A stretch of 64,000 nucleotides of DNA. Origin: a virus. The stretch lies in IMG/VR virus record IMGVR_UViG_3300037493_005685, positions 31,499-95,498 of that record. One strand, given 5' to 3'. This document shows, one piece after another, positions 929 to 25,436 of the stretch (positions are counted from its first letter, which is position 1; every line of letters begins with the position of its first letter). The notes below the pieces were generated by a model. It saw only the letters and a program-made list of their open reading frames with translations. It did no database searches and had not been told where the DNA came from. The translations under genes and the position numbers were made by a program.

Positions 929-1082
929 AGAGCACCTTCTTGAACCAGTCGTTGCGGGAGTTGCGCCAAGAAGCAAGCATGGGAAATTGGTGTTTGTTAC
1001 CCACGTAAACGTACCTAGCAATCTTAAGCAACTCCCAGAACATCATATTGTGGGAGTATCTGACGTAGAAGAGGTTGCTCAT
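918..1082 (-). CDS. Array A micro-gene 4 (54 aa)
   Basis: 54 residues starting MSNLFYVRYSHN. The GGAGG overlaps the end of the upstream gene, somewhat far (13 nt) from the ATG. The C-terminal SRNDWFKKVLY resembles the Q-D-V/L-W/Y-x-F-K-T motif of array B members. Unknown function. Confidence 0.55.
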   Translation of the reverse strand: MSNLFYVRYSHNMMFWELLKIARYVYVGNKHQFPMLASWRNSRNDWFKKVLYDD

Positions 1083-1083
1083 C

Positions 1084-1269
1084 TTAGTGATACGCCTCCA
1101 AGTTATCAAAGCGGTACAAAGACCGAAGGCTTACAACTGCGTCCCTTAACAGGTACTTATGTCGCACATACCATTTAGACTGACTTCGAGGATGGCACCA
1201 CAAGTTTAACTGGTCCACATAAAAGTCCCTGCAAGCCAAAGCGGCGTTGTGTTGTAGGTTAATGCGCAC
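1084..1269 (-). CDS. Array A micro-gene 5 (61 aa, GTG start)
   Basis: I prefer the GTG start at 1269 (MRINLQHN...), preceded by GGAA at -6. An ATG at 1284 is also possible. The MRIN start is shared with array B member 19445-19588, and the C-terminal SLRSLYRF is shared with 21578-21748 and 23141-23332, so the two arrays contain paralogues. Confidence 0.6.
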   Translation of the reverse strand: MRINLQHNAALACRDFYVDQLNLWCHPRSQSKWYVRHKYLLRDAVVSLRSLYRFDNLEAYH

Positions 1270-1489
1270 GCGTTCCGTGTTCATAGATGTACCTGTAGTT
1301 GTGTTCGCACAGATAGAAGTTACGCTCGAAGATTGAACGGGGGGATTCTGTGTTGCTAGCTATCAAGAATTCATCGGCTTTAACATTGTGCCTATACCCC
1401 ACCCACCATAAGAACTGCTTGAAGGTCTCCATACGCAAGCGGCTGGTTGTGTACAGGAGTGAGTCAACGGCTACGAGATTGGTGGGCAT
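1259..1489 (-). CDS. Array A micro-gene 6 (76 aa)
   Basis: 76 residues, ATG at 1489 preceded by AGGAGAGCTAGT, overlapping the end of the upstream gene by about 19 nt. Aromatic and Arg rich. No domain recognised. Confidence 0.65.
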   Translation of the reverse strand: MPTNLVAVDSLLYTTSRLRMETFKQFLWWVGYRHNVKADEFLIASNTESPRSIFERNFYLCEHNYRYIYEHGTRAH

Positions 1490-1713
1490 ACTAGCTCTCC
1501 TAGCTCTCTGAGGGCCTTGGCTGCACTGTAGTTATGTAGACGTCTTACGTCGTAATTAGAGAATACTGTGCGGGGCCAGTTAAAGAACGCGTACCTACGT
1601 GAGTACTGAAGAGCGCTATATGCTGTGCATTTGTTCGTTAAGTCTTTTATTTTCTTGCCAGAGCTGCTGTGCAACATGGAAGAATACCCCGTAATTCCTT
1701 TCTGCCAGCCCAA
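1471..1713 (-). CDS. Array A micro-gene 7, start uncertain
   Basis: Open frame ending at 1471. The convincing part is the C-terminal ~55 residues (YSRRYAFFNWPRTVFSNYDV..), in the style of the array. No ATG/GTG/TTG lies near the expected junction at about 1640, so the start may be a rare codon or one of the internal ATGs at 1677-1713, which would overlap the upstream gene by up to 98 nt. Confidence 0.4.
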   Translation of the reverse strand: MGWQKGITGYSSMLHSSSGKKIKDLTNKCTAYSALQYSRRYAFFNWPRTVFSNYDVRRLHNYSAAKALRELGELVCPPIS

Positions 1714-1921
1714 AGTTTACAAGGGCGTTGGTGTAATCCTGCGCCTTATGGAATTTGAGGGCCATGCCACACTCGAGCTCAAGCTTGAACTTGAGGTCTT
1801 TGAGTACGGCCATGGCTGGTTCGTTGAGCTCTGCGATGGGAAGAATCTTCTCCCATCTCTCTTTGAAGAGCTCCTCGAGGTTGGTGATTTCTTGTTCGAA
1901 GGCTTGGGTGAAGCTGGTCAT
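1616..1921 (-). CDS. Acidic helical hypothetical protein
   Basis: 101 residues, ATG preceded by GGGAGGTTACG. Predicted to be largely helical with Glu/Leu-rich segments (FEQEITNLEELFKERWEK). Unlike its basic neighbours it is acidic and probably not a member of the micro-gene family. Its ATG overlaps the stop of the upstream TTG-start gene. Unknown function. Confidence 0.75.
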   Translation of the reverse strand: MTSFTQAFEQEITNLEELFKERWEKILPIAELNEPAMAVLKDLKFKLELECGMALKFHKAQDYTNALVNFGLAERNYGVFFHVAQQLWQENKRLNEQMHSI

Positions 1922-2160
1922 CGTAACCTCCCTGGGTTGTCGTTAAAACGCATAGCCAACGTAAAGAAGCACGTACGGCGCCAGATATAGGAGTTCTTAC
2001 CCCAGTAGCGCATAACGTTGCCTTTATACTTGTCAGCCTTTTCCCACATTATTTTATTGTACTCGAGCAAGAACTTAGCATCCTCATCAGCCGCCATTTG
2101 CGCGGCTACCTGGTTAAAGACGTGTGTGAGTATGTCCCCTGCATAGTCTAGTAATGACAA
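1918..2160 (-). CDS. Array A paralogue, TTG start (80 aa)
   Basis: 80 residues with a TTG start at 2160 preceded by GAGG. It is clearly related to the next gene: both have A-A-Q-x(3-5)-D-A-K/R, then E-Y/W, then A-D-K-[YC]-K-x-N-[VA]-M-R-[YF]. The motif ADKYKGNVMRYW is shared with 2148-2399 and 2380-2607, so these three are tandem duplicates. Function unknown. Confidence 0.7.
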   Translation of the reverse strand: MSLLDYAGDILTHVFNQVAAQMAADEDAKFLLEYNKIMWEKADKYKGNVMRYWGKNSYIWRRTCFFTLAMRFNDNPGRLR

Positions 2161-2399
2161 GCTAGCCTCGTTCTTATGTCGGCTGTTAGGGCGTGTTTCT
2201 TTATCTCATGGAAGTTAATGAGCTTGTAACCTCGTAGCGTATACTCAGAGAAAGCAAAGCGCATAGCGTTGCTCTTACACTTGTCTGCTTGAGAGAATGC
2301 AAAGGTTCGCCACTCACTTAGTATTCTAGCGTCCTCTGTGTCTTGGATTTGCTGGGCTGCATACCGTGACCACTCTTTGTTATGGATGCGTGTCAGCAT
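2148..2399 (-). CDS. Array A paralogue (83 aa)
   Basis: Starts MLTRIHNKEW with AGAGG upstream; an ATG two codons earlier is also possible. Core AADKCKSNAMRF-type motif (observed QADKCKSNAMRF) aligns with ADKYKGNVMRYW of the gene downstream and NVYKASAMRYRR of the gene upstream. Tandem paralogue of unknown function. Confidence 0.7.
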   Translation of the reverse strand: MLTRIHNKEWSRYAAQQIQDTEDARILSEWRTFAFSQADKCKSNAMRFAFSEYTLRGYKLINFHEIKKHALTADIRTRLACHY

Positions 2400-2607
2400 A
2401 GTCATACCTCTGAGTGCCATCAGCATAGTAGCGCAGAAAGATAAACAAACCCTTCATGTCTTCATAGTTACGCCGATAGCGCATGGCGCTGGCCTTGTAA
2501 ACGTTTGCGGTAAACCACATGTGACGCAGAGACATGTTCTTTTTGGGCTCGTCAGGAAACAAGGTGGCGTAAAGAGTGTGCTCTATGGAGAATGTTAGCG
2601 GGTCCAT
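2380..2607 (-). CDS. Array A paralogue (75 aa)
   Basis: Start chosen at ATG 2607 (MDPLTFSIEH) preceded by TGAGGA, overlapping the end of the membrane-protein gene upstream. Contains NVYKASAMRYRRNYED, the M-R-Y motif of the tandem family. Unknown function. Confidence 0.65.
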   Translation of the reverse strand: MDPLTFSIEHTLYATLFPDEPKKNMSLRHMWFTANVYKASAMRYRRNYEDMKGLFIFLRYYADGTQRYDYADTHP

Positions 2608-2810
2608 CTCAATGTCCTCAGCGCCTCTAGCTTGTCCACAGGATAAGACAACGCCACCCAAGAGACAAGACCAACTCCAGCTATAAGAGCCAACGAGAAG
2701 ATTGGGTCATCAAACAAGGTGGCACTGATGAGAGTCACAATCGTGATTGGCGGAAGCCAGCGCTGTCGGCGTTGGTGGGCACGGTTATATTCGCGCTCTA
2801 TGGATGTCAT
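2595..2810 (-). CDS. Small two-helix membrane protein
   Basis: 71 residues from the ATG at 2810 with an excellent AAAGGAGG. A basic N-terminus (REYNRAHQRRQRW) precedes two hydrophobic helices at about 20-35 and 40-58, suggesting an inner-membrane hairpin. First gene after a promoter-like motif at 2836-2850, so it probably heads the leftward array A transcript. Function unknown. Confidence 0.7.
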   Translation of the reverse strand: MTSIEREYNRAHQRRQRWLPPITIVTLISATLFDDPIFSLALIAGVGLVSWVALSYPVDKLEALRTLRWTR

Positions 2811-2835
2811 GAGTCCTCCTTTTTGTTGTTCGCTG

Positions 2836-2850
2836 ACTGATACCAAAAAG
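2836..2850 (-). promoter_or_regulatory. Promoter motif class 1
   Basis: Minus strand reads CTTTTTGGTATCAG, a version of the recurrent TTTGGTAWAAG motif (extended -10 type TGnTAtaaT). It lies about 26 nt upstream of the ATG at 2810. Confidence 0.45.
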
Positions 2851-2862
2851 AAGGAGAACGTT

Positions 2863-3045
2863 TTAGTCTTGGTCGATTGGGATGAGCTCGACGTAATTGA
2901 TGTGAGTAACGCGCACGGTGTGAGAGCCTATATCTGTATTGGTCACGCCAACGTCGATACGTCGCAGCTTCTTTGTCTTTACCTTGCCCGCGAGCTCTCT
3001 TAGATGCTTCAGCACCATCTTGATGCCAGCGTCACTCATGGCCAT
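2863..3045 (-). CDS. Hypothetical protein (60 aa)
   Basis: 60 residues, ATG at 3045 with ACGAGG upstream, overlapping the stop of the previous gene. Basic helical N-terminal half (KMVLKHLRELAGKVKTKKLRR), beta-type C-terminal half. No family recognised. Confidence 0.6.
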   Translation of the reverse strand: MAMSDAGIKMVLKHLRELAGKVKTKKLRRIDVGVTNTDIGSHTVRVTHINYVELIPIDQD

Positions 3046-3253
3046 CGTTGTCCTCGTAGCCTTCCATCTGGGTCTCCATATAATCAAACACGGCATTTAC
3101 GTAAGGATTCTCACCGTACCGTATCACAGGGAAGGACAGGGGTGGTGGGAGCATACACTCGCCCTGCCACAGCACGTGTCCGTTAAAGACCATGAGAGGA
3201 AAGATATATTGGCACTTTGTGTGGGCCAAGGGCTTGATTAAGAAACGCGGCAT
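3032..3253 (-). CDS. Hypothetical protein (73 aa)
   Basis: 73 residues rich in Pro and aromatic residues. No convincing ribosome binding site before the ATG at 3253, so the start is uncertain. No family recognised. Confidence 0.5.
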   Translation of the reverse strand: MPRFLIKPLAHTKCQYIFPLMVFNGHVLWQGECMLPPPLSFPVIRYGENPYVNAVFDYMETQMEGYEDNDGHE

Positions 3254-11598: not shown

Positions 11599-13683
11599 AT
11601 GCAAAGACATCAATCCCACAGAGACGACGAGCCGTTTGACCTCTTTACGAAGTTGGACCCTGAGAATCCTTTGCACGTGTGGAATGACGCTGCCAACGAC
11701 ACGACAGAGGGTCGTCAGCGTTTATTGATAGACGGCCCTTACGTTAAGCGCGCCTATGACTTTCAGGGAAACCTGCGTCGTTTCTTTAAGCCCAACCCTT
11801 ACAAGAAGATGCCCCTTGAGGCTCTGAGCGACATTAAGCCTTCCAGCTTCGAGGGCAAGCACCCTGACGACTTCTTGTTCTATAACAAGGCTCTTAACAA
11901 GAACATCGATGCTCTTAGTGAAGAGGACCTAGCTGCCTTCTATCACGGGCACAAGCAAAAGGTGCAGGCTGCCCAAGAAGCCGTTGACCAAGAGGCCGCT
12001 GAGCAAGCCGCAGCTGAAGAGGCAAGGGTACAGGCCCTCCTTCAAGAGCACATCACCAAGTCCAACAAGGCCACTCACAACGTTGGCACCGATGTGATGC
12101 TTGGCACAGGTGGTCTTGGTGCAGGTCTTTACGGCGGAAAGAAGGTCTATGACACTCTGAGAGAGAAGGGTGCGGCTGCTCCTCCCACTCCTACCGAGGC
12201 TGCTCTCTTCTTGAAAGACGCCATCAAGAAGCTGACGTTGTTTCATCCTGAGAAGTTAACAAGCCCAAGGGACCTAGATTCGCTTGGAGCCCATGTACGA
12301 GAGTACGTTGCAGCTCTTCCTCCTGAGGTTAAAGCTCAGATTAACCATCTTCACGGTGACTTTGAGGCTGGGCATGCTACTGCGCATGACATCTTAAAGG
12401 GCAACATTCCGGCTCCACCCATTAAGGCTGCTCCCCCACAACCCCAACAGCCCAAACAACATAACGACGCTAGCAGCTCATCCACCTCTAGCGACGCCGC
12501 CCCCTCCAAATCCAAGTGGCCCTTGTACACAGTTTTAGGTGTAGGCGGTGCTGGGCTTCTTGGGGGTGCGGGGGCTGTTGGGCATCACCTATACAAAGAA
12601 CGTGAGGCTGAGAATATGTTAAACAAAGAATCCGAGGAGCAACCCCTCAGCGAAGAGCAAATACAGACCCTACGCCTTATGTCTCTCACCCCAGAGCAGA
12701 GGGCTATGTACATGCAGGTTAACCCTGCTGGAGTACCAAAGATGGCAACCAATATGACGCCCGAGCATCTTAAGTCTCTTAGAGACGTGGATAAGAAGCA
12801 GGACAAGACCAAGTACCTACCCAAGAAGGTGCGGGGCATTCGGGAGGAATCCAAAGAAGCAGGCGTACGTGACTTCGTAAGCCGCCACCTAGGGCGCAAG
12901 AGCGAAGAGTTTATCCAAGGCCGCAAGGCTCTTGATGTGGCTGCCAAGGCTAAGAACGAAGAAGACCTCTTGGCCGCTTATGCCAAGAAGCGCGGTCTGC
13001 ATGTGGACGAGAAGGGTGTGATTGGTAACCCACCTGCCCCTAAGGAGCCAGGGTTCCTACAACGTAACAAATGGCCGCTAGGTATGGCGGCTGCTGGAGC
13101 TGGAGGTCTGTATATGCTCAACCAACAAGACAAGATGAGTTCCTACGACGAAACCCTATGCCGCCTGGGCCTAGCCAAGCTGGCTGCCAAGATGCCGCCG
13201 CCTATTCCATTGAAGGCAAAGGGGCCTGCCGCCTCGAAGGGCAAGCCCTTCTTCACTCCTTCTCAGTCCACCGCCGCTAAGAAGATGAGTGGTCCTGCTC
13301 CGGCTAAAGCTCCTTGGGAAGAAGCCCAAGATGTAAAGCTGTCCTTTGATAGGGGTTACGTTGACGCTCTTGCTTCTCTTAAGCTCGCTGGCGCTATGGC
13401 ACAGATGCTAAAGAAGGCGCCTATCCATAGTGGCGCAGCTCCCAAAGCGTATGCTGAAGGCTTTGGTGTGAGAGCTGCTAAGCCGGTGCAAGGGCCAGGA
13501 GCTGTGGATAAGGTTAAGGGTGCTGTGAGCGGTGCTGCTGATAAGGCTAAGAGCACCTGGGACAAGATGCCTACCTGGGGTAAGGGCATGGCTGCAGGTG
13601 GAGCGGGCCTAGGGCTGTTGGGAGCGGGTGCTGGCGTAGGCTCTGCTATGTCTTCTCCTGCTCCGGTTATCGTTAACCATTAA
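11599..13683 (+). CDS. Modular glycine-zipper polyprotein-like protein (694 aa)
   Basis: 694 residues made of repeated units: polar helical N-terminus (1-165); zipper (LGTGGLGAGLYGGKKV); linker and Pro/Gln stretch; KSKWPLYTVLGVGGAGLLGG zipper; charged helical part with EAGVRDFVSRHLG; RNKWPLGMAAAGAGGLYML zipper; then MSSYDETLCRLGLAKLAAKM and LSFDRGYVDALASLKLAGAM, two internal copies of the N-terminal module that starts other proteins; final PTWGKGMAAGGAGLGLLGAG zipper. It looks like several family members fused, perhaps cut by the head protease. Downstream gene begins 12 nt after the stop. Function inferred as virion/membrane only. Confidence 0.8.
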   Translation: MQRHQSHRDDEPFDLFTKLDPENPLHVWNDAANDTTEGRQRLLIDGPYVKRAYDFQGNLRRFFKPNPYKKMPLEALSDIKPSSFEGKHPDDFLFYNKALNKNIDALSEEDLAAFYHGHKQKVQAAQEAVDQEAAEQAAAEEARVQALLQEHITKSNKATHNVGTDVMLGTGGLGAGLYGGKKVYDTLREKGAAAPPTPTEAALFLKDAIKKLTLFHPEKLTSPRDLDSLGAHVREYVAALPPEVKAQINHLHGDFEAGHATAHDILKGNIPAPPIKAAPPQPQQPKQHNDASSSSTSSDAAPSKSKWPLYTVLGVGGAGLLGGAGAVGHHLYKEREAENMLNKESEEQPLSEEQIQTLRLMSLTPEQRAMYMQVNPAGVPKMATNMTPEHLKSLRDVDKKQDKTKYLPKKVRGIREESKEAGVRDFVSRHLGRKSEEFIQGRKALDVAAKAKNEEDLLAAYAKKRGLHVDEKGVIGNPPAPKEPGFLQRNKWPLGMAAAGAGGLYMLNQQDKMSSYDETLCRLGLAKLAAKMPPPIPLKAKGPAASKGKPFFTPSQSTAAKKMSGPAPAKAPWEEAQDVKLSFDRGYVDALASLKLAGAMAQMLKKAPIHSGAAPKAYAEGFGVRAAKPVQGPGAVDKVKGAVSGAADKAKSTWDKMPTWGKGMAAGGAGLGLLGAGAGVGSAMSSPAPVIVNH

Positions 13684-15561: not shown

Positions 15562-16041
15562 CTAAGTGATGTGTTTCCAGTCTTTACGGAGTTTTACTCG
15601 TGATATCTGTACCTGGCTAACACCGTATATAATCCCTAATTCGGCTTGAGTAAGTTTGCTTACCCTTATTGCTGTAATATCTTCTGCTCGTAGCTTAGCG
15701 CGCGCATTTTTACCGTAGTTAATCCTTCCTTTATTCAACATATCTTGTATATTTTCCGCTGGTGTAGCTACAAATAAGTGCTCGGGGTTAATACACTGCG
15801 GATTATCACACTTATGAGCTATAACCTTTCCTTTAGGTATACGCCCCACAAACACTTCATAGCTAGCTCTGTGTGCTTGTAGTGTGTGCCGCTTGTGGGT
15901 TCTAGGGTGTATGACTTCTGTTCGACCGTAACCATCCCGGTCTCTATACCCCGTCCATTCCCAACAACCGGACTCAGTATTTGTATTGTAGTGTTTTATT
16001 AGTTTTTCTTTTAAAGGCATGTAGCCAGACGCTCTACACAT
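15562..16041 (-). CDS. HNH homing endonuclease
   Basis: 159 residues. An N-terminal GCWEWTGYRDRDGYGR-type strand pair is followed by the HNH core: HRASYEVFVG..., IAHKCDNPQCINPEHLF with the Cys-x-x-x-x-Cys and final N-x-x-H, then an NIQDM.KGR linker. The C-terminal ~50 residues (AEDITAIRVSKLTQAELGIIYGVSQVQISRV) form a helix-turn-helix for site binding. AT-richer than its neighbours, as expected for a selfish mobile gene inserted between virion-type genes. Ribosome binding site AAAGGA. Confidence 0.93.
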   Translation of the reverse strand: MCRASGYMPLKEKLIKHYNTNTESGCWEWTGYRDRDGYGRTEVIHPRTHKRHTLQAHRASYEVFVGRIPKGKVIAHKCDNPQCINPEHLFVATPAENIQDMLNKGRINYGKNARAKLRAEDITAIRVSKLTQAELGIIYGVSQVQISRVKLRKDWKHIT

Positions 16042-16105: not shown

Positions 16106-17251
16106 ATGCAAAAGACAGCCCAAGACCTAGCCCAAGTAGTCTTTGAGAAGCTAGCCGTCTCCCGTTGGCGGGAAGCTATATATAGTGGGGAGTTGAACAC
16201 GCCTGAAGCCGAGAAACTAAAGGCGTACATGGGTAAAGACCCAACACAGTACTCTGAAGGTCTTAGGCAGGGTACAATTAACCGCTTAGCTGACCGGCAT
16301 ATGAGCTATGATGAACATGAGCGCTTTACCCCGAGAGAACATCTACGAAATATAAAGAATAAATATATACCAAGTGGTGCTTTACCTAAGAATTATTCTT
16401 CGACTGAGCTGGTTACAGGTAATGTAAATGTCGCTCACCCCGAAGCTAAGAATCTAGGTTATATGGGAGGGCTTAAGGATAATCCAGAGCACCACAAGCA
16501 GCTTGCTAATCTAATTACAGGACATGAAGGACGAGAATCGGACTTCTCGTTTAAGAATTTAGATCACCGAGCCAACAAGTTATGGAATCGGTCACCTAGA
16601 AATGAACCCATCTTCACGGACACTGAAGCCAAGAACCGAATGTCACCTCGTGACTATGCTAAAACACAGTTACGTGAGGACATAGCTAGGCAAGAAGTAA
16701 TTAGTAAATTTAAGCGAAGGCATTTTAAGGAGACCTCTAGAGACTTTGCTCCAACGCCAAAGACATTACTGCCTAGAGAGGAGAGAGCTGCAACTTATAA
16801 AGCGTTGCAACACGCTTCAAACATGGAGTACGGTTACGGCGCTCCTAGAGCAGAAGTGATGAAGAACTTAGAGAACACCGTTGTAAAGCCTTTGATACGT
16901 AGAGGAGCTCATTTTGACCCTGCTGTTTTGATAGACGAGGCACGGAACGCACGTATGATGTCGCCAGAAGTAGCCAAAGCTATGGAGAATGTACGCAAGG
17001 GTACAGGAGAACAATCCTTAGTACGTAGTGTAACTAACACGCCCGTTGGAGCAGACACCTATTTACCAGGTAAAGATGCTAAGTCGATTGCAAATAAGGT
17101 GATGGACGAGAGTAGTAACAGGATGAAAGCTCATGCGAGCAAAATTACAGGTAAAGTCGAAGAAAATTTAACTAAGCTTGACCCGTGGGTACAGCGTGGA
17201 AGGTGGGCAGTCGACAAACTAAAGCGCGGAGTAGGACTACTCAAGAGGTAA
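16106..17251 (+). CDS. Hypothetical virion-type protein with KxA head
   Basis: 381 residues. The N-terminal helix KTAQDLAQVVFEKLAVSR ends in K-x-A, as in 3652-4110 and 59825-60160. The rest is basic and polar without membrane segments, with a conserved-looking RLADRHMSYDEHERFTPREH region. The family is not known to me. The shared head and identical start-site motif suggest co-regulation and co-targeting with 17436-18083. Confidence 0.75.
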   Translation: MQKTAQDLAQVVFEKLAVSRWREAIYSGELNTPEAEKLKAYMGKDPTQYSEGLRQGTINRLADRHMSYDEHERFTPREHLRNIKNKYIPSGALPKNYSSTELVTGNVNVAHPEAKNLGYMGGLKDNPEHHKQLANLITGHEGRESDFSFKNLDHRANKLWNRSPRNEPIFTDTEAKNRMSPRDYAKTQLREDIARQEVISKFKRRHFKETSRDFAPTPKTLLPREERAATYKALQHASNMEYGYGAPRAEVMKNLENTVVKPLIRRGAHFDPAVLIDEARNARMMSPEVAKAMENVRKGTGEQSLVRSVTNTPVGADTYLPGKDAKSIANKVMDESSNRMKAHASKITGKVEENLTKLDPWVQRGRWAVDKLKRGVGLLKR

Positions 17252-18265: not shown

Positions 18266-19081
18266 CTACGGTGCGATACTTCCCTCACAACACGTCTGCC
18301 CATCCGGGCAGGCACCAGGAAGTATGACAGCCATCCAACCGAGACAACTATTTACACAACCCCATGCTCTTTTGGGGTCCAGGAGTATAGGCCGCATATC
18401 CTCCCCACAATCCAAGTCCGTCTCCCACCCCGTATCAGATGACCACAAGGGTGGGTCGAGACACTGACCGAATGCGTCCCACGACGACCCGTCGTTACAG
18501 GTGTCAGGGCCGGTGTCTGTGTCCGCCGTATCCGTGCCGGGGTCGCTGCCCGTATCGACTGTGTCGGTGCCGGGGTCGCTGCCCGTATCGATGGCAGGTC
18601 CGGTGTCTAAGCCAGTGTCCGTTTCGATGGCAGGTCCGGTGTCCGTGCTGGAACCGGTGTCTGTTTCTACGGCAGGTCCGGTGTCTAAGCCAGTGTCAGT
18701 CTCTATGGCAGGGCCGGTATCCATGCTGGAACCGGTGTCAGTTTCGATGGCAGGGCCGGTATCCATGCTGGAACCGGTGTCAGTTTCGATGGCAGGGCCG
18801 GTGTCCATGTTGGAACCGGTGTCTGTTTCGATAGCAGGGCCGGTGTCCATGTTGGAACCGGTGTCAGTTTCGATGGCAGGGCCGGTGTCCATGTTGGAAC
18901 CGGTGTCTGTTTCGATAGCAGGGCCGGTGTCAGCTGCCGTGTAAGAGGGGTAGTACGGGCTCTTCTTGCCCGTGTCGGTGGCAGGGATAGTGTCCACACT
19001 AGTGTCAGAGCCCGAGGGCTCGTCTACCAGCAAGGAACAGCCCATAAAGAACGCACAAAACACGATTGCTAGAGTTTTCAT
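18266..19081 (-). CDS. Repeat lipoprotein, DTGPAIETDTG repeats
   Basis: 271 residues; strong AAGGAGG. Signal peptide MKTLAIVFCAFFMGC with a lipobox-like F-M-G-C ending (lipidation Cys15). Residues ~51-175 are tandem DTGPAIETDTG units, then DTGSDPGTDT spacers. The last ~80 residues are Cys-rich (at least 7 Cys: GWETDLDCGED, RAWGCVNSCLGW, CPDGQTCCEG), probably disulphide-bonded. Likely exported to the envelope surface on an acidic extended stalk. Such DTG-rich lipoproteins are typical of delta-group bacteria rather than phages, so it may be host-derived. Possible superinfection or adhesion role (inference). Confidence 0.8.
   Translation of the reverse strand: MKTLAIVFCAFFMGCSLLVDEPSGSDTSVDTIPATDTGKKSPYYPSYTAADTGPAIETDTGSNMDTGPAIETDTGSNMDTGPAIETDTGSNMDTGPAIETDTGSSMDTGPAIETDTGSSMDTGPAIETDTGLDTGPAVETDTGSSTDTGPAIETDTGLDTGPAIDTGSDPGTDTVDTGSDPGTDTADTDTGPDTCNDGSSWDAFGQCLDPPLWSSDTGWETDLDCGEDMRPILLDPKRAWGCVNSCLGWMAVILPGACPDGQTCCEGSIAP
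18585..18931 (-). repeat. Tandem 42-nt coding repeats
   Basis: Eight full and one truncated copies of an 11-residue core DTGPA[IV]ETDTG, mostly in a 14-residue (42-nt) period; two periods are shortened to 12 residues. DNA copies differ only by a few substitutions, so copy number is probably unstable. Confidence 0.9.
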
Positions 19082-19156: not shown

Positions 19157-19176
19157 AAAAGGGGAAGACCCCCTTT
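19157..19176 (-). terminator. Terminator
   Basis: Minus strand AAAGGGGGTCTTCCCCTTTTG then CTTTT, just downstream of the 18-codon ORF at 19184-19240. Confidence 0.6.
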
Positions 19177-19183
19177 ATACCCC

Positions 19184-19240
19184 TCATGCCAGCTTATCCA
19201 GCTGGAGCATGAGGAGTACTAGCGCACATGCTGTCAGCAT
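19184..19240 (-). CDS. Hydrophobic micropeptide (18 aa)
   Basis: 18 codons, MLTACALVLLMLQLDKLA, with AAGGAGGCACCC at ideal distance and a terminator right after. Sequence also forms a large stem (CTCATGC..GCATGAG). It could be a tiny membrane peptide, a leader peptide or a chance ORF within a structured RNA. The class 1 motif at 19270-19294 lies upstream. Confidence 0.35.
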   Translation of the reverse strand: MLTACALVLLMLQLDKLA

Positions 19241-19268
19241 GGGTGCCTCCTTGATGTTAAAGAGTTGT

Positions 19269-19454
19269 CTACTTTCTTATACCCTTAATAACCAGCGGTT
19301 CTCGAGCAAACCCCAACAGCGCATGAAACGCCACGTCGTTTTTATGTACCCAACCGCCTATTAGGCAGTCAAGTCGTAATCCTGGCTTTGCTAGGTTTTT
19401 GGGCAGAAGGAAGATATCCATAAAGATGTCACGCTTTTCCCACCTCAGGTACAT
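19269..19454 (-). CDS. Array B micro-gene 1 (61 aa)
   Basis: Last gene of array B. The ATG at 19454 overlaps the stop of the TTG-start gene upstream; AAGGAACAGG serves as ribosome binding site. Hydrophobic middle (LDCLIGGWVHKND). Its end carries the class 1 promoter motif of the next unit. Unknown function. Confidence 0.6.
   Translation of the reverse strand: MYLRWEKRDIFMDIFLLPKNLAKPGLRLDCLIGGWVHKNDVAFHALLGFAREPLVIKGIRK
19270..19294 (-). promoter_or_regulatory. Promoter motif class 1
   Basis: Minus strand TTAAGGGTATAAGAAAGTAG at the end of array B, positioned to drive the 18-codon ORF. Confidence 0.45.
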
Positions 19455-19588
19455 GTTTCCTGTTCCTTAGCTAGGTCCCACAGCTTCAGGTACGCGTAGA
19501 AACGACAGTGATACAGCGCATCTACAGGTAGAACTCTTTCTTTACCCCAATCAGTAACCATCTCGAATATGCGGCGGTTTATTCGCAA
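19445..19588 (-). CDS. Array B micro-gene 2 (47 aa, TTG start)
   Basis: MRINRRIFEMVTDWG...; TTG at 19588 with AGAGGAGGTACC upstream. The R-I-N-R-R start matches R-L-N-R-R inside 20995-21186 and R-I-N-R in 22833-23012. Contains DALYHCRFYAYLKLW. Confidence 0.65.
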   Translation of the reverse strand: MRINRRIFEMVTDWGKERVLPVDALYHCRFYAYLKLWDLAKEQETCT

Positions 19589-19730
19589 GGTACCTCCTCT
19601 GTGCGTTTAGCAGTATCCTGAATGTCTGGGTCTTGAATATGTACAGGTCTTGCATGAAGGGCCTGGAGCCTGATGTATGCAGGTGCTTTATGTAAGTGCA
19701 GATGAGCCGAAACGAGCCTTTATCCAGCAT
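19551..19730 (-). CDS. Array B micro-gene 3 (59 aa)
   Basis: ATG at 19730 with AAAGGACTCAAG. Core Y-I-K-H-L-H..R-P-F-M-Q-D-L-Y-I-F-K-T-x(4)-I-L aligns with 20272-20445 (KYLHNPRRNRQDVWFFKT..IIL), so the two are paralogues. Confidence 0.7.
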   Translation of the reverse strand: MLDKGSFRLICTYIKHLHTSGSRPFMQDLYIFKTQTFRILLNAQRRYLANKPPHIRDGY

Positions 19731-19867
19731 CTTATCTTGAGTCCTTTTACATACAGCCTAGAGAATTCGTCACGCTTTAGGCCGTACATGTTGAGCTCCA
19801 CATTGGTAGCCATGCCCCGATGGGCGTAGCCGCTTATAACGGCAAAGATGTAGGGGCTAATTAGCAT
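19688..19867 (-). CDS. Array B micro-gene 4 (59 aa)
   Basis: MLISPYIFAVISGYAHRG..., overlapping both neighbours by 11-43 nt. Aromatic N-terminus, basic C-terminus (SRLYVKGLKIRCWIKARFG). No clear ribosome binding site, so coupling with the upstream gene is likely. Confidence 0.6.
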   Translation of the reverse strand: MLISPYIFAVISGYAHRGMATNVELNMYGLKRDEFSRLYVKGLKIRCWIKARFGSSALT

Positions 19868-20018
19868 GTTGAAGCGAGAATGAAGCGTGCTGGTGTAATA
19901 GACGTAGAAAGGAGTTTACTATTACTCCATTAATGTTTATCCCTACCGACCTCCTGTGAATGTACCTTCTATCAGCCCTGTCGGCTATTAGCCAAAACGT
20001 TCCTTGTGAGATTTTCAT
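19857..20018 (-). CDS. Array B micro-gene 5 (53 aa)
   Basis: MKISQGTFWLIADRADRRYI..., ATG at 20018 with AAGGTGGTGATATA. Basic, with YIHRRS and an LRLLHQH tail. Unknown function. Confidence 0.65.
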   Translation of the reverse strand: MKISQGTFWLIADRADRRYIHRRSVGININGVIVNSFLRLLHQHASFSLQHAN

Positions 20019-20022
20019 TATA

Positions 20023-20271
20023 TCACCACCTTAAGGCGTCGCAGTATCCAGAGAAAGGGCCAGGTTCTAGCTGCGTAGGTGGACCTTTGGATTCCTTTGT
20101 CTGGATAGTGCCGCTGGAATGAGCCTTTATTAACGTACATCTTGCACACCCACACTGCTCAACCTGGAGCCAATAGCGTAATTGTTCATATGGAAACACC
20201 CTGCGCTTGAAGTTCTCCTCAATATTCACGCCCTCCCCGGCCAGCTTAAAGCTGAATTTGTTTATGAGCAT
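20023..20271 (-). CDS. Array B micro-gene 6 (82 aa)
   Basis: ATG at 20271 preceded by GGAGTGGTAG. The longest member. Contains CGCARC (possible metal pair) in the middle and a polar Pro/Gly tail, so it may differ in function from the basic micro-genes around it. Confidence 0.6.
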   Translation of the reverse strand: MLINKFSFKLAGEGVNIEENFKRRVFPYEQLRYWLQVEQCGCARCTLIKAHSSGTIQTKESKGPPTQLEPGPFSGYCDALRW

Positions 20272-20445
20272 CTACCACTCCAACATCAAAGGCCACGCCC
20301 ACGGCTCTAGCCCGTCTCTGTCCGCGTAGTGGTCCATTAAGATGATTATGTTGATTGTCTTGAAGAACCAGACATCCTGCCTGTTCCTTCTAGGGTTGTG
20401 TAAATACTTGTGAACTACGTGGAAGGCGTCTTCTTTGGGGGACAT
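20272..20445 (-). CDS. Array B micro-gene 7 (57 aa)
   Basis: MSPKEDAFHVVHKYLH..., ATG at 20445 with CAGGAGGTACTG. QDVWFFKT motif shared with 19551-19730. Overlaps the upstream stop as TGATG. Confidence 0.75.
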   Translation of the reverse strand: MSPKEDAFHVVHKYLHNPRRNRQDVWFFKTINIIILMDHYADRDGLEPWAWPLMLEW

Positions 20446-20678
20446 CAGTACCTCCTGAGGTCAATCCCAGGCAACCACTCGAGGTGTTCTGGCGTTTGCT
20501 CCATTAACCACAAACCCAAACAACCCCACGGCCCTTGTATCTCCAGCCCCCTCTGCCTCTCAAGCAGCATTACGGCGTATTCCAGCCATGCCTCCCTCCT
20601 TGTCTCAGCGCCTTCGCCGGTTAAGGATGTAATCAATACTTGCAATTCCCCCAAGTTCTCTTTTACGTAGTAGCTCAT
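20445..20678 (-). CDS. Array B micro-gene 8 (77 aa)
   Basis: 77 residues, MSYYVKENLGELQVLITSL..., more acidic and Leu rich than other members. Weak ribosome binding site, overlap of 74 nt with the upstream gene. A CCCAAACAACCCCACGGCCC repeat copy lies inside at about 20515. Confidence 0.6.
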   Translation of the reverse strand: MSYYVKENLGELQVLITSLTGEGAETRREAWLEYAVMLLERQRGLEIQGPWGCLGLWLMEQTPEHLEWLPGIDLRRY

Positions 20679-20811
20679 TGTACAATAATTCTAACCTAGT
20701 TGAGCAGCGGTCGAAGTAGGCGAGCATAGCCCACCTATTCTCACCCATCTGAGAGCCATCTTTAACGCCGTAGAGCATGCCCCACATCATGGGGCTTGGT
20801 TTTTCCCACAT
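20605..20811 (-). CDS. Array B micro-gene 9 (68 aa)
   Basis: ATG at 20811 after AAGGTGAAAT. Met/Trp-rich N-terminus and Arg-rich C-terminus (YILNRRRR). Unknown function. Confidence 0.65.
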   Translation of the reverse strand: MWEKPSPMMWGMLYGVKDGSQMGENRWAMLAYFDRCSTRLELLYNELLRKRELGGIASIDYILNRRRR

Positions 20812-20814
20812 ATT

Positions 20815-20991
20815 TCACCTTAAGCGCTCTCGTATGTGTCTTGTTTCCAGCCGCATATACTTAAGCTTCAAAGCTTTTATTACGTCTTCCCAGTGGAAGA
20901 CCATGCCTATACTCACATGCGCGCTAGGTGAGAAGTAGTTACGCTTGTAGAGCAAGCGCATATTATATACAGCCTCATCTGTGAAGTACAT
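20815..20991 (-). CDS. Array B micro-gene 10 (58 aa)
   Basis: MYFTDEAVYNMRLLYKRNYF..., ATG at 20991 with GGGAGGTAAGCC. Basic C-terminal helix KALKLKYMRLETRHIRERLR. Unknown function. Confidence 0.7.
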   Translation of the reverse strand: MYFTDEAVYNMRLLYKRNYFSPSAHVSIGMVFHWEDVIKALKLKYMRLETRHIRERLR

Positions 20992-20994
20992 GGC

Positions 20995-21186
20995 TTACCT
21001 CCCAAACCAAATTGGATGTGGGTGAACGTACATTTTCGCTAGCTCTCTGGCTGCTTCTCGGGTGTTGTAGGGGATTACCCCCACAAAGTAATCAAACACT
21101 TCTGTACTTTGTCTTTTAAATACCTCGCGCCTGTTCAGTCGCATGGCCCGGACGTGCAGGACTGGGCGGATGTTGCTTATTCGCAT
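20995..21186 (-). CDS. Array B micro-gene 11 (63 aa)
   Basis: ATG at 21186 with GGGAGCAAT. Core HVRAMRLNRREVFKRQ is the best single example of the A-M-R-x-N-R-R-x-V-F motif that links arrays A and B. Confidence 0.7.
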   Translation of the reverse strand: MRISNIRPVLHVRAMRLNRREVFKRQSTEVFDYFVGVIPYNTREAARELAKMYVHPHPIWFGR

Positions 21187-21316
21187 ATTGCTCCCTCATC
21201 AGCGAAGCCCCCTCTAGTATGAACCAACGTTCAAACATACCGTGGTGGCTGAGGTCCCAATAAGACGCAGAGATTAGTCCTATCCGCGCCTTAGCGTAGT
21301 AGTCTACATCGAGCAT
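21116..21316 (-). CDS. Array B micro-gene 12 (66 aa)
   Basis: MLDVDYYAKARIGL..., GAAGGGGC before the ATG. YYAKARIG..SYWDLSHHGMFERWF aligns loosely with DYARIEFG..FDWHIGYYFRES of 22012-22206. Long 3' overlap (71 nt) with the next gene. Confidence 0.6.
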   Translation of the reverse strand: MLDVDYYAKARIGLISASYWDLSHHGMFERWFILEGASLMREQYANKQHPPSPARPGHATEQARGI

Positions 21317-21449
21317 GCCCCTTCATTGCCTCCTTAAATGTCATTCTTATGTAAAAGCGGCTACACGCAGTCTGCATCCACTCATGGTCCTGTATTACAT
21401 GCTGCTGAACTGCGACCCTAAACATCCGCATAGTTTCTGAGTACATCAT
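21291..21449 (-). CDS. Array B micro-gene 13 (52 aa)
   Basis: MMYSETMRMFRVAVQQHV..., ATGATG at 21449 with GGGAGATTT. Ends GHARCRLLR. Overlaps both neighbours. Confidence 0.65.
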   Translation of the reverse strand: MMYSETMRMFRVAVQQHVIQDHEWMQTACSRFYIRMTFKEAMKGHARCRLLR

Positions 21450-21615
21450 AAATCTCCCAGAAGTCCTTGCGCTTTTGGCGGTACATCCATGAGTGGCCAG
21501 CGTAACTAGGGTTAAAGACTACTTGGCGCTTAAAGAACGTTCCGTAGAACTTAAAGATGTTCCGGCGAAAGTCTTTGTTACATATCACGGCAGCGCTCCG
21601 GGTAGGAGACCCCAT
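21418..21615 (-). CDS. Array B micro-gene 14 (65 aa)
   Basis: ATG at 21615; the nearest GGAG is 20 nt away, so translation may be coupled. Contains YRQKRKDFWEIYDVLRNYAD, with the R-K-D-F-W variant of the Q-D-V-W motif. Confidence 0.55.
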   Translation of the reverse strand: MGSPTRSAAVICNKDFRRNIFKFYGTFFKRQVVFNPSYAGHSWMYRQKRKDFWEIYDVLRNYADV

Positions 21616-21748
21616 ACCTAGCCCAGCTATAGAGGCTCCTTATGTTAATAACGCGTCTTTCAAATTGAAAGTTTAGTTCCCATATGTACTCTGCAGGTGT
21701 TATAGGCATAGGCGCATTGCGAATTGTTTCTGCTAACAGGTGATGCAC
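21578..21748 (-). CDS. Array B micro-gene 15 (56 aa, GTG start)
   Basis: GTG at 21748 with GAAGGAGAAATATCC. Core RRVINIRSLYSWARYG is shared with 23141-23332 (RRLINQGISNLRSLY) and with array A 1084-1269 (SLRSLY). Confidence 0.7.
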   Translation of the reverse strand: MHHLLAETIRNAPMPITPAEYIWELNFQFERRVINIRSLYSWARYGVSYPERCRDM

Positions 21749-21900
21749 GGATATTTCTCCTTCAGGATTCTAATCCAGGTAGTAAAGTACTGCCGCCTGT
21801 CTACCTTGGCTACGTCTAGGTGGTGGCGGGCGTACACGAAGGCGGGTATGGAGGCGCATATGATTCTAAGACGGTGTTTCTTTCCGATGGTGCCATACAT
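21733..21900 (-). CDS. Array B micro-gene 16 (55 aa)
   Basis: MYGTIGKKHRLRIICASIP..., ATG at 21900 with GGAGTAACCTGC. Contains FVYARHHLDVAKVDRRQYF. Unknown function. Confidence 0.65.
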   Translation of the reverse strand: MYGTIGKKHRLRIICASIPAFVYARHHLDVAKVDRRQYFTTWIRILKEKYPCITC

Positions 21901-22018
21901 GCAGGTTACTCCATACCGCTCTTTTTGTGGGGTATATGCGGGCTAACGGTATGTCTAGGTACACGGTACCCATGTACTTGACGTAATACCTAAACAGGCT
22001 AGACGTAGCGGTTAACAT
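21866..22018 (-). CDS. Array B micro-gene 17 (50 aa)
   Basis: MLTATSSLFRYYVKYMGTVY..., ATG overlaps the stop of the gene upstream; weak ribosome binding site. Aromatic and basic. Confidence 0.55.
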   Translation of the reverse strand: MLTATSSLFRYYVKYMGTVYLDIPLARIYPTKRAVWSNLHVWHHRKETPS

Positions 22019-22206
22019 TTTTGTATCTGTTTCTGCCTTAGGCGCATGCTTTCTCGGAAGTAGTAGCCGATGTGCCAGTCGAAGCCACTTAGGTTTTCGC
22101 TGAACACCCAGGGGCCAAACTCAATCCGCGCATAGTCGAGGTATAGCGCATCCTCCACACACCCAAAGCAGTATTTATGGTTGAATTGCCGTAAGTAGAA
22201 GCTCAT
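22012..22206 (-). CDS. Array B micro-gene 18 (64 aa)
   Basis: MSFYLRQFNHKYCFGCVEDA..., ATG at 22206 with AAAGGAG at a longer distance. Contains EDALYLDYARIEFG and ends in a basic helix. Confidence 0.65.
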   Translation of the reverse strand: MSFYLRQFNHKYCFGCVEDALYLDYARIEFGPWVFSENLSGFDWHIGYYFRESMRLRQKQIQKC

Positions 22207-22336
22207 GGAAGTCGCGCTCCTTTACGCGTAGGTATTCTTCTAGGTAGAAAAACGGGTCAAAGTTCCAGAACGACCTGTGGTTACCTAGGCACATATTGAT
22301 TACTTGGATGATTTGGCGTAGGTCTGACTTGTTCAT
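22175..22336 (-). CDS. Array B micro-gene 19 (53 aa)
   Basis: MNKSDLRQIIQVINMCLG..., ATG overlaps the stop of the upstream gene (CTATGA). Contains HRSFWNFDPFFYLEEYLR. Weak ribosome binding site. Confidence 0.6.
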   Translation of the reverse strand: MNKSDLRQIIQVINMCLGNHRSFWNFDPFFYLEEYLRVKERDFHELLLTAIQP

Positions 22337-22494
22337 AGCCGTATAAACTCTGCAAACATAAGCCGGTTGTACTCGACTAGTTTGTTCATTATGTGCCTCC
22401 TCGTAGTAAAGGTATGCCAGTCGTCGTTAACGTCGCTGATTAGGTTTGTTATCAAGGTGAACTTTCCCATACATTTCCCTGTAAGTTTGAGCAT
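22333..22494 (-). CDS. Array B micro-gene 20 (53 aa)
   Basis: MLKLTGKCMGKFTLITNL..., ATG at 22494 after GGAGTGTGGAG. A second in-frame ATG at 22389 has its own perfect AGGAGG (CGAGGAGGCACATA), so an 18-residue C-terminal peptide may also be made. Confidence 0.6.
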   Translation of the reverse strand: MLKLTGKCMGKFTLITNLISDVNDDWHTFTTRRHIMNKLVEYNRLMFAEFIRL

Positions 22495-22601
22495 CTCCAC
22501 ACTCCTGCGTGAAATTTTAGGAACCCAATGTTGCGAAAGTAGGCTGTGCGGTCATGAGCCCAGCGGAGGTCATTAGCGCGGACGTATGATATAACCATCA
22601 T
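22452..22601 (-). CDS. Array B micro-gene 21 (49 aa)
   Basis: MMVISYVRANDLRWAHDR..., weak ribosome binding site. AYFRN and NDLRWAHD resemble pieces of 22573-22752 and 22833-23012. Confidence 0.55.
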   Translation of the reverse strand: MMVISYVRANDLRWAHDRTAYFRNIGFLKFHAGVWRCSNLQGNVWESSP

Positions 22602-22752
22602 CCAGCCATATTGATGGACTTTTAACATAGAGTTGGTGCCACCTCTGTATTTTTAGAGTGCGCAGGTCGTTCATACCGCGCACAGCCCATATACGAGCAT
22701 TATCGCGTACGTCGTCTAAAACAGACGCCCATATTTGTTTGTAGTTAATCAT
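22573..22752 (-). CDS. Array B micro-gene 22 (59 aa)
   Basis: MINYKQIWASVLDDVRDNAR...; clear paralogue of 22833-23012: both have Y-x(4)-W-x-S-V-[LI]-D-D-V-R, then W-A-V, L-R and R-W-H-x-L at matching spacing. Best evidence for duplication inside the array. Confidence 0.7.
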   Translation of the reverse strand: MINYKQIWASVLDDVRDNARIWAVRGMNDLRTLKIQRWHQLYVKSPSIWLDDGYIIRPR

Positions 22753-22879
22753 GCTTGAAATGTAGCCTCATGACCTCTCTTTCGTACTTCATTCTTTTTA
22801 TTGCGAGATCATTGTTGCCGTAACTCAAATGCTTAATAACCCACCATAGAGCTATACGTATTTCCCTTAATCGAGTCAT
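22745..22879 (-). CDS. Array B micro-gene 23 (44 aa)
   Basis: MTRLREIRIALWWVIKHL..., ATG at 22879 with AAAGGTGG upstream (long spacing). Smallest member, strongly basic. Confidence 0.6.
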   Translation of the reverse strand: MTRLREIRIALWWVIKHLSYGNNDLAIKRMKYEREVMRLHFKHD

Positions 22880-23012
22880 GTAGAATGTGCCACCTTTCTG
22901 CGCGATTTATCCTAAGGCAACGTGCGCCATGCACGGCCCAGTTTTGTCCGAAGCTAAACTGGGTTCTGACATCATCTATTACGGACTCCCAGGTAGGTAT
23001 GTACCTAGTCAT
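22833..23012 (-). CDS. Array B micro-gene 24 (59 aa)
   Basis: MTRYIPTWESVIDDVRTQ..., paralogue of 22573-22752 as described there. Also carries ARCLRINRAERWH, linking it to the R-I/L-N-R members. Confidence 0.7.
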   Translation of the reverse strand: MTRYIPTWESVIDDVRTQFSFGQNWAVHGARCLRINRAERWHILHDSIKGNTYSSMVGY

Positions 23013-23169
23013 GGCACGCGTTGTCCCATATCAACTTCTTTCGCGAGTAGAGGTCCCGCATGTAGAATTCGGGGGGCACAATCTGCGCCCATACGCTGCT
23101 CCGCAAACTCCACCAAAGGGGCAGGGAATTTACCGTGGCCCTAAAATGGATGTGCAGGTGCTCGTGCAT
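23005..23169 (-). CDS. Array B micro-gene 25 (54 aa)
   Basis: MHEHLHIHFRATVNSLPL..., ATG at 23169 with GCGGAG upstream. His-rich N-terminus, FYMRDLYSRKKLIWDN C-terminus. Confidence 0.6.
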   Translation of the reverse strand: MHEHLHIHFRATVNSLPLWWSLRSSVWAQIVPPEFYMRDLYSRKKLIWDNACHD

Positions 23170-23332
23170 ATAAACTCCGCAAGTTACTTATTCCTTGGTT
23201 AATAAGCCTTCGCCGTACATCTATAAGCACAAAGAAGTCACGAATAGCTATATGTCTGTACTCAGGCTTAAAGAAGATACTGCTCACCATTCCCGCTGTG
23301 CTGGCTATCCCACACTGTAAGGTCAGAAACAT
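23141..23332 (-). CDS. Array B micro-gene 26 (63 aa)
   Basis: First gene of array B. RDFFVLIDVRRRLINQG and NLRSLYARAP; the L-R-S-L-Y motif is shared with 21578-21748 and 1084-1269. Start ATG overlaps the stop of the membrane-protein gene upstream; no separate ribosome binding site. Confidence 0.6.
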   Translation of the reverse strand: MFLTLQCGIASTAGMVSSIFFKPEYRHIAIRDFFVLIDVRRRLINQGISNLRSLYARAPAHPF

Positions 23333-23622
23333 CCCAGTCTACCAGCCAGAAAGTAAGCCATAGCCATAATACACACCATGTTGATTACTAACATAACGGT
23401 GTCGAAGATGGCATAACGGCGATGCTTCATCAGACCGTGTATGCGGCGCAGTAGCTCTTCACGCTGGTCGTCATCCAACAAGGCGCCTTCTTCGTGGTAA
23501 ATACGGCAGCCCTCCTCGAAAAGTTCAATACCGCGCGTGTTGTGCTTGAGATGCTTGATTCCTATCTTCAAGAAATAAGCATTAAAGACGATAACAAGAA
23601 CGTTACCTATGATGGGCCACAT
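23323..23622 (-). CDS. Two-helix membrane protein
   Basis: 99 residues, AAAGGAGAAAACA before the ATG. Transmembrane helices at about 4-22 (IIGNVLVIVFNAYFLKIGI) and 77-95 (VMLVINMVCIMAMAYFLAG), with a charged, Arg/Glu/His-rich loop between. Heads the array B transcript behind a class 1 promoter. Unknown function. Confidence 0.75.
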   Translation of the reverse strand: MWPIIGNVLVIVFNAYFLKIGIKHLKHNTRGIELFEEGCRIYHEEGALLDDDQREELLRRIHGLMKHRRYAIFDTVMLVINMVCIMAMAYFLAGRLGCF

Positions 23623-23646
23623 TGTTTTCTCCTTTGTTTGGGTTTG

Positions 23647-23670
23647 TTACCCACTTTTACCAAGTAAATA
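23647..23670 (-). promoter_or_regulatory. Promoter motif class 1
   Basis: Minus strand ACTTGGTAAAAGTGGGTAA, about 30 nt before the ATG at 23622; probable promoter of array B. Confidence 0.5.
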
Positions 23671-23690
23671 ACTCAGATTGTAAGAGGTAC

Positions 23691-23772: not shown

Positions 23773-24258
23773 ATGCGTCACTACCATATCGATTGGGATG
23801 AAATCACCGGTAATTTTGACCAGGAACAAGCAGCGAGCGGCCTCTGGGCAATCTGCGATGCCCTCCAAAAGATTGAGACGGTCTATAACTCCGACACCGA
23901 GTTAAAGGGCCTCAATCTCCCACTGTATTCGTTTGTGAATACCTCCTACAGCTTAGACACTGAAAAAGGTGCAGCCCGCATTTGCTGTGGCTGGAAGACA
24001 GCTGTACTTCCTCTCAAAAAGATAGGGGTGCTTCAAGAAGTCATACCTTGTCACCGAGCACACGCGGTTACTACAGCGGTCTTAAAGGCAGAGAACGCAA
24101 AGCTCGATAACTCAGAGGCGAGCTCCACAGACAAATACAATCTTCAGCTGCGCCACATCTCTATCTCGCTGGAACATGGACTCGGTAATTACGAGGTAAT
24201 CACCACCTACGTCAGTTACCGAAGCCTCGAAGCCGCCTGGCTCCTCGCTATCCGCTAA
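23773..24258 (+). CDS. Hypothetical protein (161 aa)
   Basis: 161 residues; start ATG 23773 chosen for its AAAGGAG. Soluble alpha/beta-looking protein with DNFDQEQAASGLWAI-like acidic start and two Cys (ICCGWK). Only + strand gene between 18.1 and 35.8 kb, with its own promoter and terminator. No family recognised. Confidence 0.7.
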   Translation: MRHYHIDWDEITGNFDQEQAASGLWAICDALQKIETVYNSDTELKGLNLPLYSFVNTSYSLDTEKGAARICCGWKTAVLPLKKIGVLQEVIPCHRAHAVTTAVLKAENAKLDNSEASSTDKYNLQLRHISISLEHGLGNYEVITTYVSYRSLEAAWLLAIR

Positions 24259-24505: not shown

Positions 24506-24982
24506 TTACTCACGAATGGTGACGTTCCCATCCAACATGTAGATATGCGCGCGAGGGATGAAGGTCAGCGCCTCGGCGACTTCATTACCCTGCTGGGTGC
24601 TCACCTGGACAAGGACGCCGAGCCCTTCGATGTTCATGGCCTTGGTGCTCTTCATCCAGCCTTGCTCTTTGGAGCTGGCTTTGCACACGCACACCCAGGC
24701 ACCGGGGTCGCCGTGGAGTTGAACGTCCGAGACGTTGGCTTTGAGCTGGTCCATATTGGTGTTGTCGAGGGTCTTTTCGGTCATCTGGTTCTCCTTGTAA
24801 TGCCCCGACGCCCGGAAGAAGGCGACGAAGGCGTTGTACAACTCTTTGTCTTCTGTGACTTCGCGACCGTGGACAAAGAACTTCCCGTCATAGCTCAGCT
24901 TGATGGCGGGTTCGCCGGGTTCGCTATTAACCCTAAAGGTGATAGCGTTGTCGCGATTGGTTTCTGTTTTGAGTTCTTCCAT
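24506..24982 (-). CDS. Hypothetical protein with internal in-frame start
   Basis: 158 residues, AAAGGAGACACC before the ATG. Two halves: residues 1-66 (beta-type, LSYDGKFFVHGREVTEDKEL) resembling small phage proteins, and residues 67-158 from an internal ATG preceded by a perfect AAGGAGAACCAG with no stop between. Either one fused protein or a full-length protein plus a separately started 92-residue product (MTEKTLDNTNMDQLK..). Function unknown. Confidence 0.75.
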   Translation of the reverse strand: MEELKTETNRDNAITFRVNSEPGEPAIKLSYDGKFFVHGREVTEDKELYNAFVAFFRASGHYKENQMTEKTLDNTNMDQLKANVSDVQLHGDPGAWVCVCKASSKEQGWMKSTKAMNIEGLGVLVQVSTQQGNEVAEALTFIPRAHIYMLDGNVTIRE

Positions 24983-25362: not shown

Positions 25363-25436
25363 TGGTCCCTGCTGTGTGATTCGAACACACATATTAACCT
25401 GCAGGTCTTTGCCTTCCAATCGGCCAAGCAGGGACC
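25363..25436 (-). tRNA. Irregular tRNA-like gene (Cys-GCA-like)
   Basis: 9-bp acceptor-like stem GGTCCCTGC / GCAGGGACC with discriminator A, D-arm-like GGCCGATTGGAAGGC, T-arm GTGTGTTCGAATCACAC. The expected anticodon position reads CTGCAGG (GCA, Cys), but the anticodon stem pairs badly, and the long acceptor is abnormal. It could be a degenerate tRNA or a tRNA-like structure next to the tmRNA. Confidence 0.5.

Follow-up and report, generated by a model that had tools for sequence, protein, structure and literature searches.

Positions 19269–23332 of the 64,000 nucleotides analysed here (the window; IMG/VR record IMGVR_UViG_3300037493_005685, positions 31,499 to 95,498), which form the right-hand 64 kb of an uncultured virus contig of 95.5 kb (G000), carry on the minus strand an unbroken chain of 26 open reading frames (ORFs) of 44–82 amino acids (aa). 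We refer to these 4.06 kb as array B. Neighbouring ORFs overlapped by –4 to +74 nt, with a median of 26 nt. A preceding sequence-only reading had described about 26 overlapping minus-strand frames of 44–82 codons at this place, and its coordinates were reproduced exactly. The arrangement is far beyond chance tiling. On the minus strand of 19261–23340 we found 27 ORFs of at least 44 aa with a coverage of 99.5%, 26 of which joined into a single chain, whereas 300 dinucleotide shuffles of the region gave 8.3 ORFs, a mean coverage of 33% and a longest chain of no more than five. The plus strand of the region yielded 8 ORFs, 33% coverage and a chain length of 1. Several junctions within array B showed no overlap.

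Signals for translation recurred along the chain. ATG served as start codon in 23 of the 26 members (p = 5e-5), and the predicted pairing with the anti-Shine–Dalgarno (anti-SD) sequence averaged –6.9 kcal/mol at array starts, compared with –3.7 kcal/mol at the remaining ATGs in this stretch and –6.5 kcal/mol at well-supported genes (p = 5e-6). The earlier statement that nearly all members possess an AGGAGG-type site was overstated, as pairing reached –6 kcal/mol at about 60% of the starts, but the strength of the SD sites does equal that of established genes. All three stop codons were evenly used (TAA 10, TAG 8, TGA 8), which ruled out an alternative code or a recoded stop. Because of this even use and the non-overlapping junctions, neither recoding nor a single frameshifted polyprotein fits the locus.

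Coding composition was examined independently of homology, by comparison with ORFs that arise by chance in this DNA and by leave-one-out scoring. The second codon position of array B is rich in A and T, with C lowered by 8.3 and A raised by 5.3 standard deviations relative to chance ORFs. At the amino-acid level, Phe was raised (+7.6 standard deviations) together with Tyr, Trp, Glu, Ile and Met, while Thr (–6.6 standard deviations), Ser, Gly, Cys and Pro were lowered. The leave-one-out score was positive in 23 members, and for nearly every member the proper frame outscored the other five. As had been read from the sequence, the products are basic (237 Lys and Arg versus 143 Asp and Glu) and aromatic; the Arg content, however, is mostly explained by the DNA itself (10.1% versus 8.8% in random translation), and Val, Asn and Lys likewise lie near random expectation. 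The members of array B are genuine protein-coding genes and not the remains of a decayed one.

Kinship among the members turned out to be more restricted than the roughly 26 paralogous genes of the sequence-only reading, since most members had no detectable relatives in the set. Among the three duplicate pairs that had been named, 22573/22833 is certain (phmmer E = 7e-9) and aligned from the starts as whole genes. The proportions of nonsynonymous (pN) and synonymous (pS) differences in this pair were 0.44 and 0.80; the synonymous substitution rate (dS) is saturated within array B, with pN well below pS. The pair 19551/20272 is a probable one, at an E-value (0.003) that shuffled controls sometimes attain, while 21578/23141 was not significant and all remaining pairs fell within shuffled controls. 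Paralogy of the whole set was too weak to claim either from start-aligned composition (p = 0.08–0.25) or from motif sampling, which gave about 3 standard deviations for 16-residue blocks and no signal for 12-residue blocks. By eye, several late members begin with M-x-[IVL]-x-x-x-[STI]-F, but a profile built on these members retrieved no others, so that the resemblance is circular. A repeat of 18 nt is common to the nested ORF 20018–20140 and the start of 19551. Common descent of all 26 members is therefore unproven; very fast divergence could hide such kinship.

The components of the putative operon are compiled in Table 1.

Table 1 Features of array B and its flanks, in order of reading. Most rows for array members are based on ORF coordinates, the chain test and the leave-one-out composition score
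Feature	Position in window	Strand	Remarks
Operon leader (CTCTTACAAT ... GGTAAAAG ... AAACAAAGGAG)	23624–23690	–	By-eye likeness to the operon leader of G001; putative promoter
First operon gene, 99 aa, hydrophobic, probable membrane protein	23323–23622	–	Overlaps member 1; hydropathy peak 2.2
Member 1, 63 aa	23141–23332	–	
Member 2, 54 aa	23005–23169	–	
Member 3, 59 aa	22833–23012	–	Paralog of 22573–22752, phmmer 7e-9
Member 4, 44 aa	22745–22879	–	
Member 5, 59 aa	22573–22752	–	Paralog of 22833–23012; AlphaFold2 low confidence, helix 4–44, predicted local distance difference test (pLDDT) 65
Member 6, 58 aa	22452–22628	–	
Member 7, 55 aa	22333–22500	–	GTG start; ATG two codons on
Member 8, 53 aa	22175–22336	–	ATGA junction
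Member 9, 64 aa	22012–22206	–	
Member 10, 50 aa	21866–22018	–	Composition score near zero
Member 11, 55 aa	21733–21900	–	Outscored by one reverse frame
Member 12, 56 aa	21578–21748	–	GTG start
Member 13, 65 aa	21418–21615	–	True start may be the GTG at the 10th codon, preceded by GGAG
Member 14, 52 aa	21291–21449	–	
Member 15, 66 aa	21116–21316	–	
Member 16, 63 aa	20995–21186	–	71-nt overlap with member 15
Member 17, 58 aa	20815–20991	–	3-nt gap, frame of member 16
Member 18, 68 aa	20605–20811	–	3-nt gap, frame of member 17
Member 19, 77 aa	20445–20678	–	Start doubtful, with a weak SD and a composition score close to zero
Member 20, 57 aa	20272–20445	–	Probable paralog of 19551–19730, E 0.003
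Member 21, 82 aa	20023–20271	–	Codons 1–45 protein-like (+2.8 bits), remainder not (–5.7)
Nested possible 27th member (MYVNKGSFQ...)	20018–20140	–	Composition +2.1 bits; 18-nt repeat shared with 19706–19723
Member 22, 53 aa	19857–20018	–	
Member 23, 59 aa	19688–19867	–	No SD
Member 24, 59 aa	19551–19730	–	AlphaFold2 low confidence, helices 4–19 and 24–49, pLDDT 67
Member 25, 47 aa	19445–19588	–	TTG start, strongest SD in array
Member 26, 61 aa	19269–19454	–	
18-aa hydrophobic ORF 3′ of array	19184–19240	–	AAGGAGG precedes ATG; read from sequence
Terminator-like hairpin, then T-rich stretch	19158–19176	–	

Transfer-messenger RNA (tmRNA) and transfer RNAs (tRNAs) are encoded near array B, and these were the only matches above Rfam thresholds in its vicinity, with no family inside the array. 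The phage tmRNA (25010–25354, minus strand), about 2 kb off, specifies the tag AEPQEYLKAA; a tRNA-like Rfam match that ARAGORN did not report adjoins it at 25366–25433. On the other side of the array, 18266–19081 (minus strand) encodes a possible secreted lipoprotein with Thr/Asp-rich repeats of 14 residues (42-nt unit), and a gene at 15562–16041 (minus strand) resembles HNH homing endonucleases.

The window comes from a tailed phage: one of its proteins corresponds, at 42%, to the major capsid protein of a distant relative, Salmonella phage Arash. Apart from Arash and Vibrio D69, both of them named phages, the relatives recovered were the contigs G001 (88.6 kb), G002 (39 kb), G003 (143.9 kb), G004, G005 and G006. 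The major capsid protein of G003 (IMGVR_UViG_3300037042_003932) is 92% identical and much of the contig is colinear with the window, but G003 is uninformative on the array B locus because sequence corresponding to about 10.8–47 kb of the window is apparently missing from it. In G001 we detected a homolog of the first operon gene 23323–23622 (L007:4035–4322, 33% identity, E = 2e-5), followed by genes for 51, 82 and 448 aa and no array; a leader of similar appearance, judged by eye, sits upstream of the gene that precedes this homolog. G006 contains the tmRNA together with orthologs of neighbouring genes, their order rearranged, and no array alongside. Since these two contigs have no array beside the shared genes, array B appears to be lineage-specific as far as checkable; the gene order of both is rearranged, and neither offers a clean test of the locus. 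A long intact gene, which the sequence-only reading had named as the mark of a decayed gene, was not encountered: in the rearranged order of G001 and G006 there are either ordinary small genes or none. Searches with the flanking genes 23323–23622, 24506–24982, 16106–17251, 23773–24258 and 11599–13683 returned rearranged contigs alone, none with an array at this position.

Matches to the array itself were equally lacking. A nucleotide search of annotated phages, searches of phage genomes with members 22573 and 20445, of viral contigs with a pair profile and of bacterial genomes with member 20605 all returned nothing, and the fold search with the structure models gave no match better than E = 4.

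A separate array of comparable style was present in the same phage group. We scanned 1.75 Mb of sequence for chains of ORFs of 40–95 aa; chains were obtained in array B (26), G006 (11), Arash (9) and G003 (9), and no comparable chain save those of Arash and G003 was found in G001–G005 and the named phages. The chain of 11 in G006 (L086 16210–18485) was not counted as such an array, as its products look dissimilar. In G003, about 23 minus-strand genes, mostly of 60–103 aa, occupy L023 9171–15741 (contig positions ~127971–134541). There, 28 ORFs of at least 55 aa cover 99% of 6.6 kb, compared with 27% in shuffles, and the longest unbroken chain of such ORFs comprises 12, compared with at most four. 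Overlaps extend to about 50 nt, with a few larger ones that may represent misassigned starts, and the tiling breaks once, near 11.2–11.9 kb. Paralogy is readily detected in this array (to E = 3e-32), with a family of five genes that includes 66%-identical neighbours, a family of three and a further pair. For the 66%-identical pair, nonsynonymous (dN) and synonymous substitution rates of 0.24 and 0.63 correspond to a dN/dS of about 0.38, indicating purifying selection; the ratio near 1 that had been proposed as evidence against functional micro-genes was thus not observed in the sole unsaturated pair. Profiles built from the G003 array and from a smaller set of tiled genes in the window (array A; 918–3253, minus strand, 63–101 aa) scored against array B within the decoy range, so that no homology was detected. 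Within array A, the genes 1918, 2148 and 2380 are mutually related.

The surroundings of array A are shared with G003: the window genes 3032, 2595 and 1616 are orthologous to 16754, 16128 and 15766 of G003. Between 2595 and 1616 of the window lie three genes related to one another; G003 has none at this place, and its long array follows 15766. Because array A and the G003 array share flanking orthologs and differ in contents, arrays of this style appear to have been gained and reshaped between close relatives. Further runs of small ORFs, several with array-like composition, lie left of the window (L009 10258–15033, minus strand); some of these ORFs have counterparts of about 40% identity in G003.

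We propose, with a probability of about one half, that array B comprises 26, perhaps 27, translated micro-genes of a single operon, lineage-specific and partly duplicated, and that their products bind host targets in counter-defence or host takeover. The operon, headed by the gene of the probable membrane protein of 99 aa, would give a single transcript that begins at the leader (about 23650) and ends at the terminator-like hairpin. Translation of each gene probably opens the next start, because most starts lie inside or just past the end of the preceding gene, and the proteins would thereby be made together. After tandem duplication, copies would diverge fast and yet remain protein-like. The products may form a kit of small, probably helical, basic and aromatic proteins, each member of which would be replaceable; low-confidence models draw members as helices or helical hairpins. 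A role in counter-defence or host takeover is suggested because poor conservation, duplication and turnover fit changing host targets. Of the diversified set of microproteins that the sequence-only reading envisaged, coding genes and some tandem duplication are retained; the kinship of all 26 is not, nor is the proposed binding of their products to nucleic acids or the ribosome.

Several observations weigh against this proposal. Pfam, PHROGs and NCBIfam gave no above-chance match for array B, families of counter-defence and takeover included, paralogy went undetected in most members, and the structure models are of low confidence. The codon usage of the array is unlike that of the long genes of the phage, and its compositions lie partway to random translation, such that part of the set may consist of young ORFs under weak constraint. 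The amino-acid skews of array B and the G003 array relative to ordinary phage genes correlate at 0.83, in part a reflection of their shared nearness to random translation. An alternative is a gene nursery, in which mostly young ORFs are translated and individually near-neutral, with few of them functional. The lack of homologs or paralogs for most members, the near-random Arg, Val, Asn and Lys and the absence of the array from the relatives examined are all in line with such a scenario. We nonetheless hold it to be rather unlikely, as an unbroken tiling of 26 links with SD sites suggests selection on the whole block, and the strong second-position and Phe/Thr signals as well as the purifying selection in the G003 pair count against a nursery. 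Similarly doubtful is a module like that of phage SPO1, whose small early proteins would arrest replication, transcription or division in the host. In favour of it, array B consists of numerous small, uncharacterised genes that share a strand and have basic products, but the SPO1 genes are larger on average, mostly gapped and located on both strands.

A chain that switches frames along one strand can also mimic a single frameshifted gene, be it a long gene broken many times by decay or sequencing error or a polyprotein produced by programmed frameshifting, and shuffles alone cannot exclude this. SD sites that recur at ORF starts and 23 ATG starts are unexpected in a decayed gene, however, as is duplication in whole-gene units, exemplified by 22573/22833. 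Moreover, members 16 to 18 share a reading frame, divided by stops and short gaps, and therefore cannot be joined by frameshifting. The composition of array B is unlike that of the phage's genes, and no long gene exists here in the relatives examined. In view of these findings we consider a broken or frameshifted gene highly improbable. Hardly more plausible is the idea that what matters is the RNA or initiation itself, for instance as a ribosome sink, rather than the proteins. It would account for 26 initiation sites within 4 kb, and the tmRNA gene about 2 kb away would fit, but the signals at the protein level (composition, frame scores and dN/dS of the G003 pair) and the lack of any Rfam family inside the array argue against it.

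More generally, and quite tentatively, deeply tiled arrays might constitute a distinct kind of phage locus that serves diversification, in which overlapping starts let new small proteins be added, duplicated or swapped while remaining co-expressed; such arrays would occupy two or more sites in a genome and turn over between close relatives. Gene callers that penalise overlaps and short ORFs would be prone to overlook these blocks or to label them non-coding. If the products of the micro-genes do act on host defences, each array would represent a ready screening set of small inhibitors. The comparison with G003, which suggests array gain and reshaping between close relatives, would moreover make it possible to observe how very small genes arise and diverge.

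Among known systems, the G003 array is similar to array B in that it belongs to the same phage group and consists of tiled small minus-strand genes with tandem paralogs and a similar amino-acid skew. It differs by its longer genes (60–103 aa), its colinearity with the array A locus and the lack of detectable homology to array B. Nine tandem genes of 59–70 aa on one strand, gp73c–gp81c of phage Arash (OQ632216, 47003–48743; L061 3504–5244), are likewise reminiscent of array B. All nine are annotated as hypothetical and show weak, sub-threshold Pfam similarity; unlike array B, they form one family with a D..G.P...GD.V core, which was not seen in array B, overlap by no more than 8 nt and are flanked by two clusters of tRNAs. 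The host-takeover module of SPO1 (FJ230960) also clusters many small genes, some of them annotated as host-acting, but these range from roughly 17 to 350 aa, are mostly gapped, occur on both strands and are not tiled. No PHROGs family above chance was found for any member of array B, and members 22573 and 20445, the two compared with phage genomes, gave no homologs. Anti-CRISPR and anti-defence genes, too, are small ORFs that are specific to a lineage and sit at accessory loci of variable content. Array B resembles them in its small lineage-specific ORFs and differs in having no known family or recognised regulator gene, such as one of the helix–turn–helix (HTH) type. A description of a tiled micro-gene array was not found in the literature, although the search covered an open-access library and is thus weak evidence of absence. 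The claim that no phage system with so many tiny related genes has been described has to be narrowed in the light of the nine Arash paralogs and the SPO1 module, but neither equals array B in number or depth of tiling. Among phage small-gene clusters, array B is thus unusual in its deep tiling and its 26 members.

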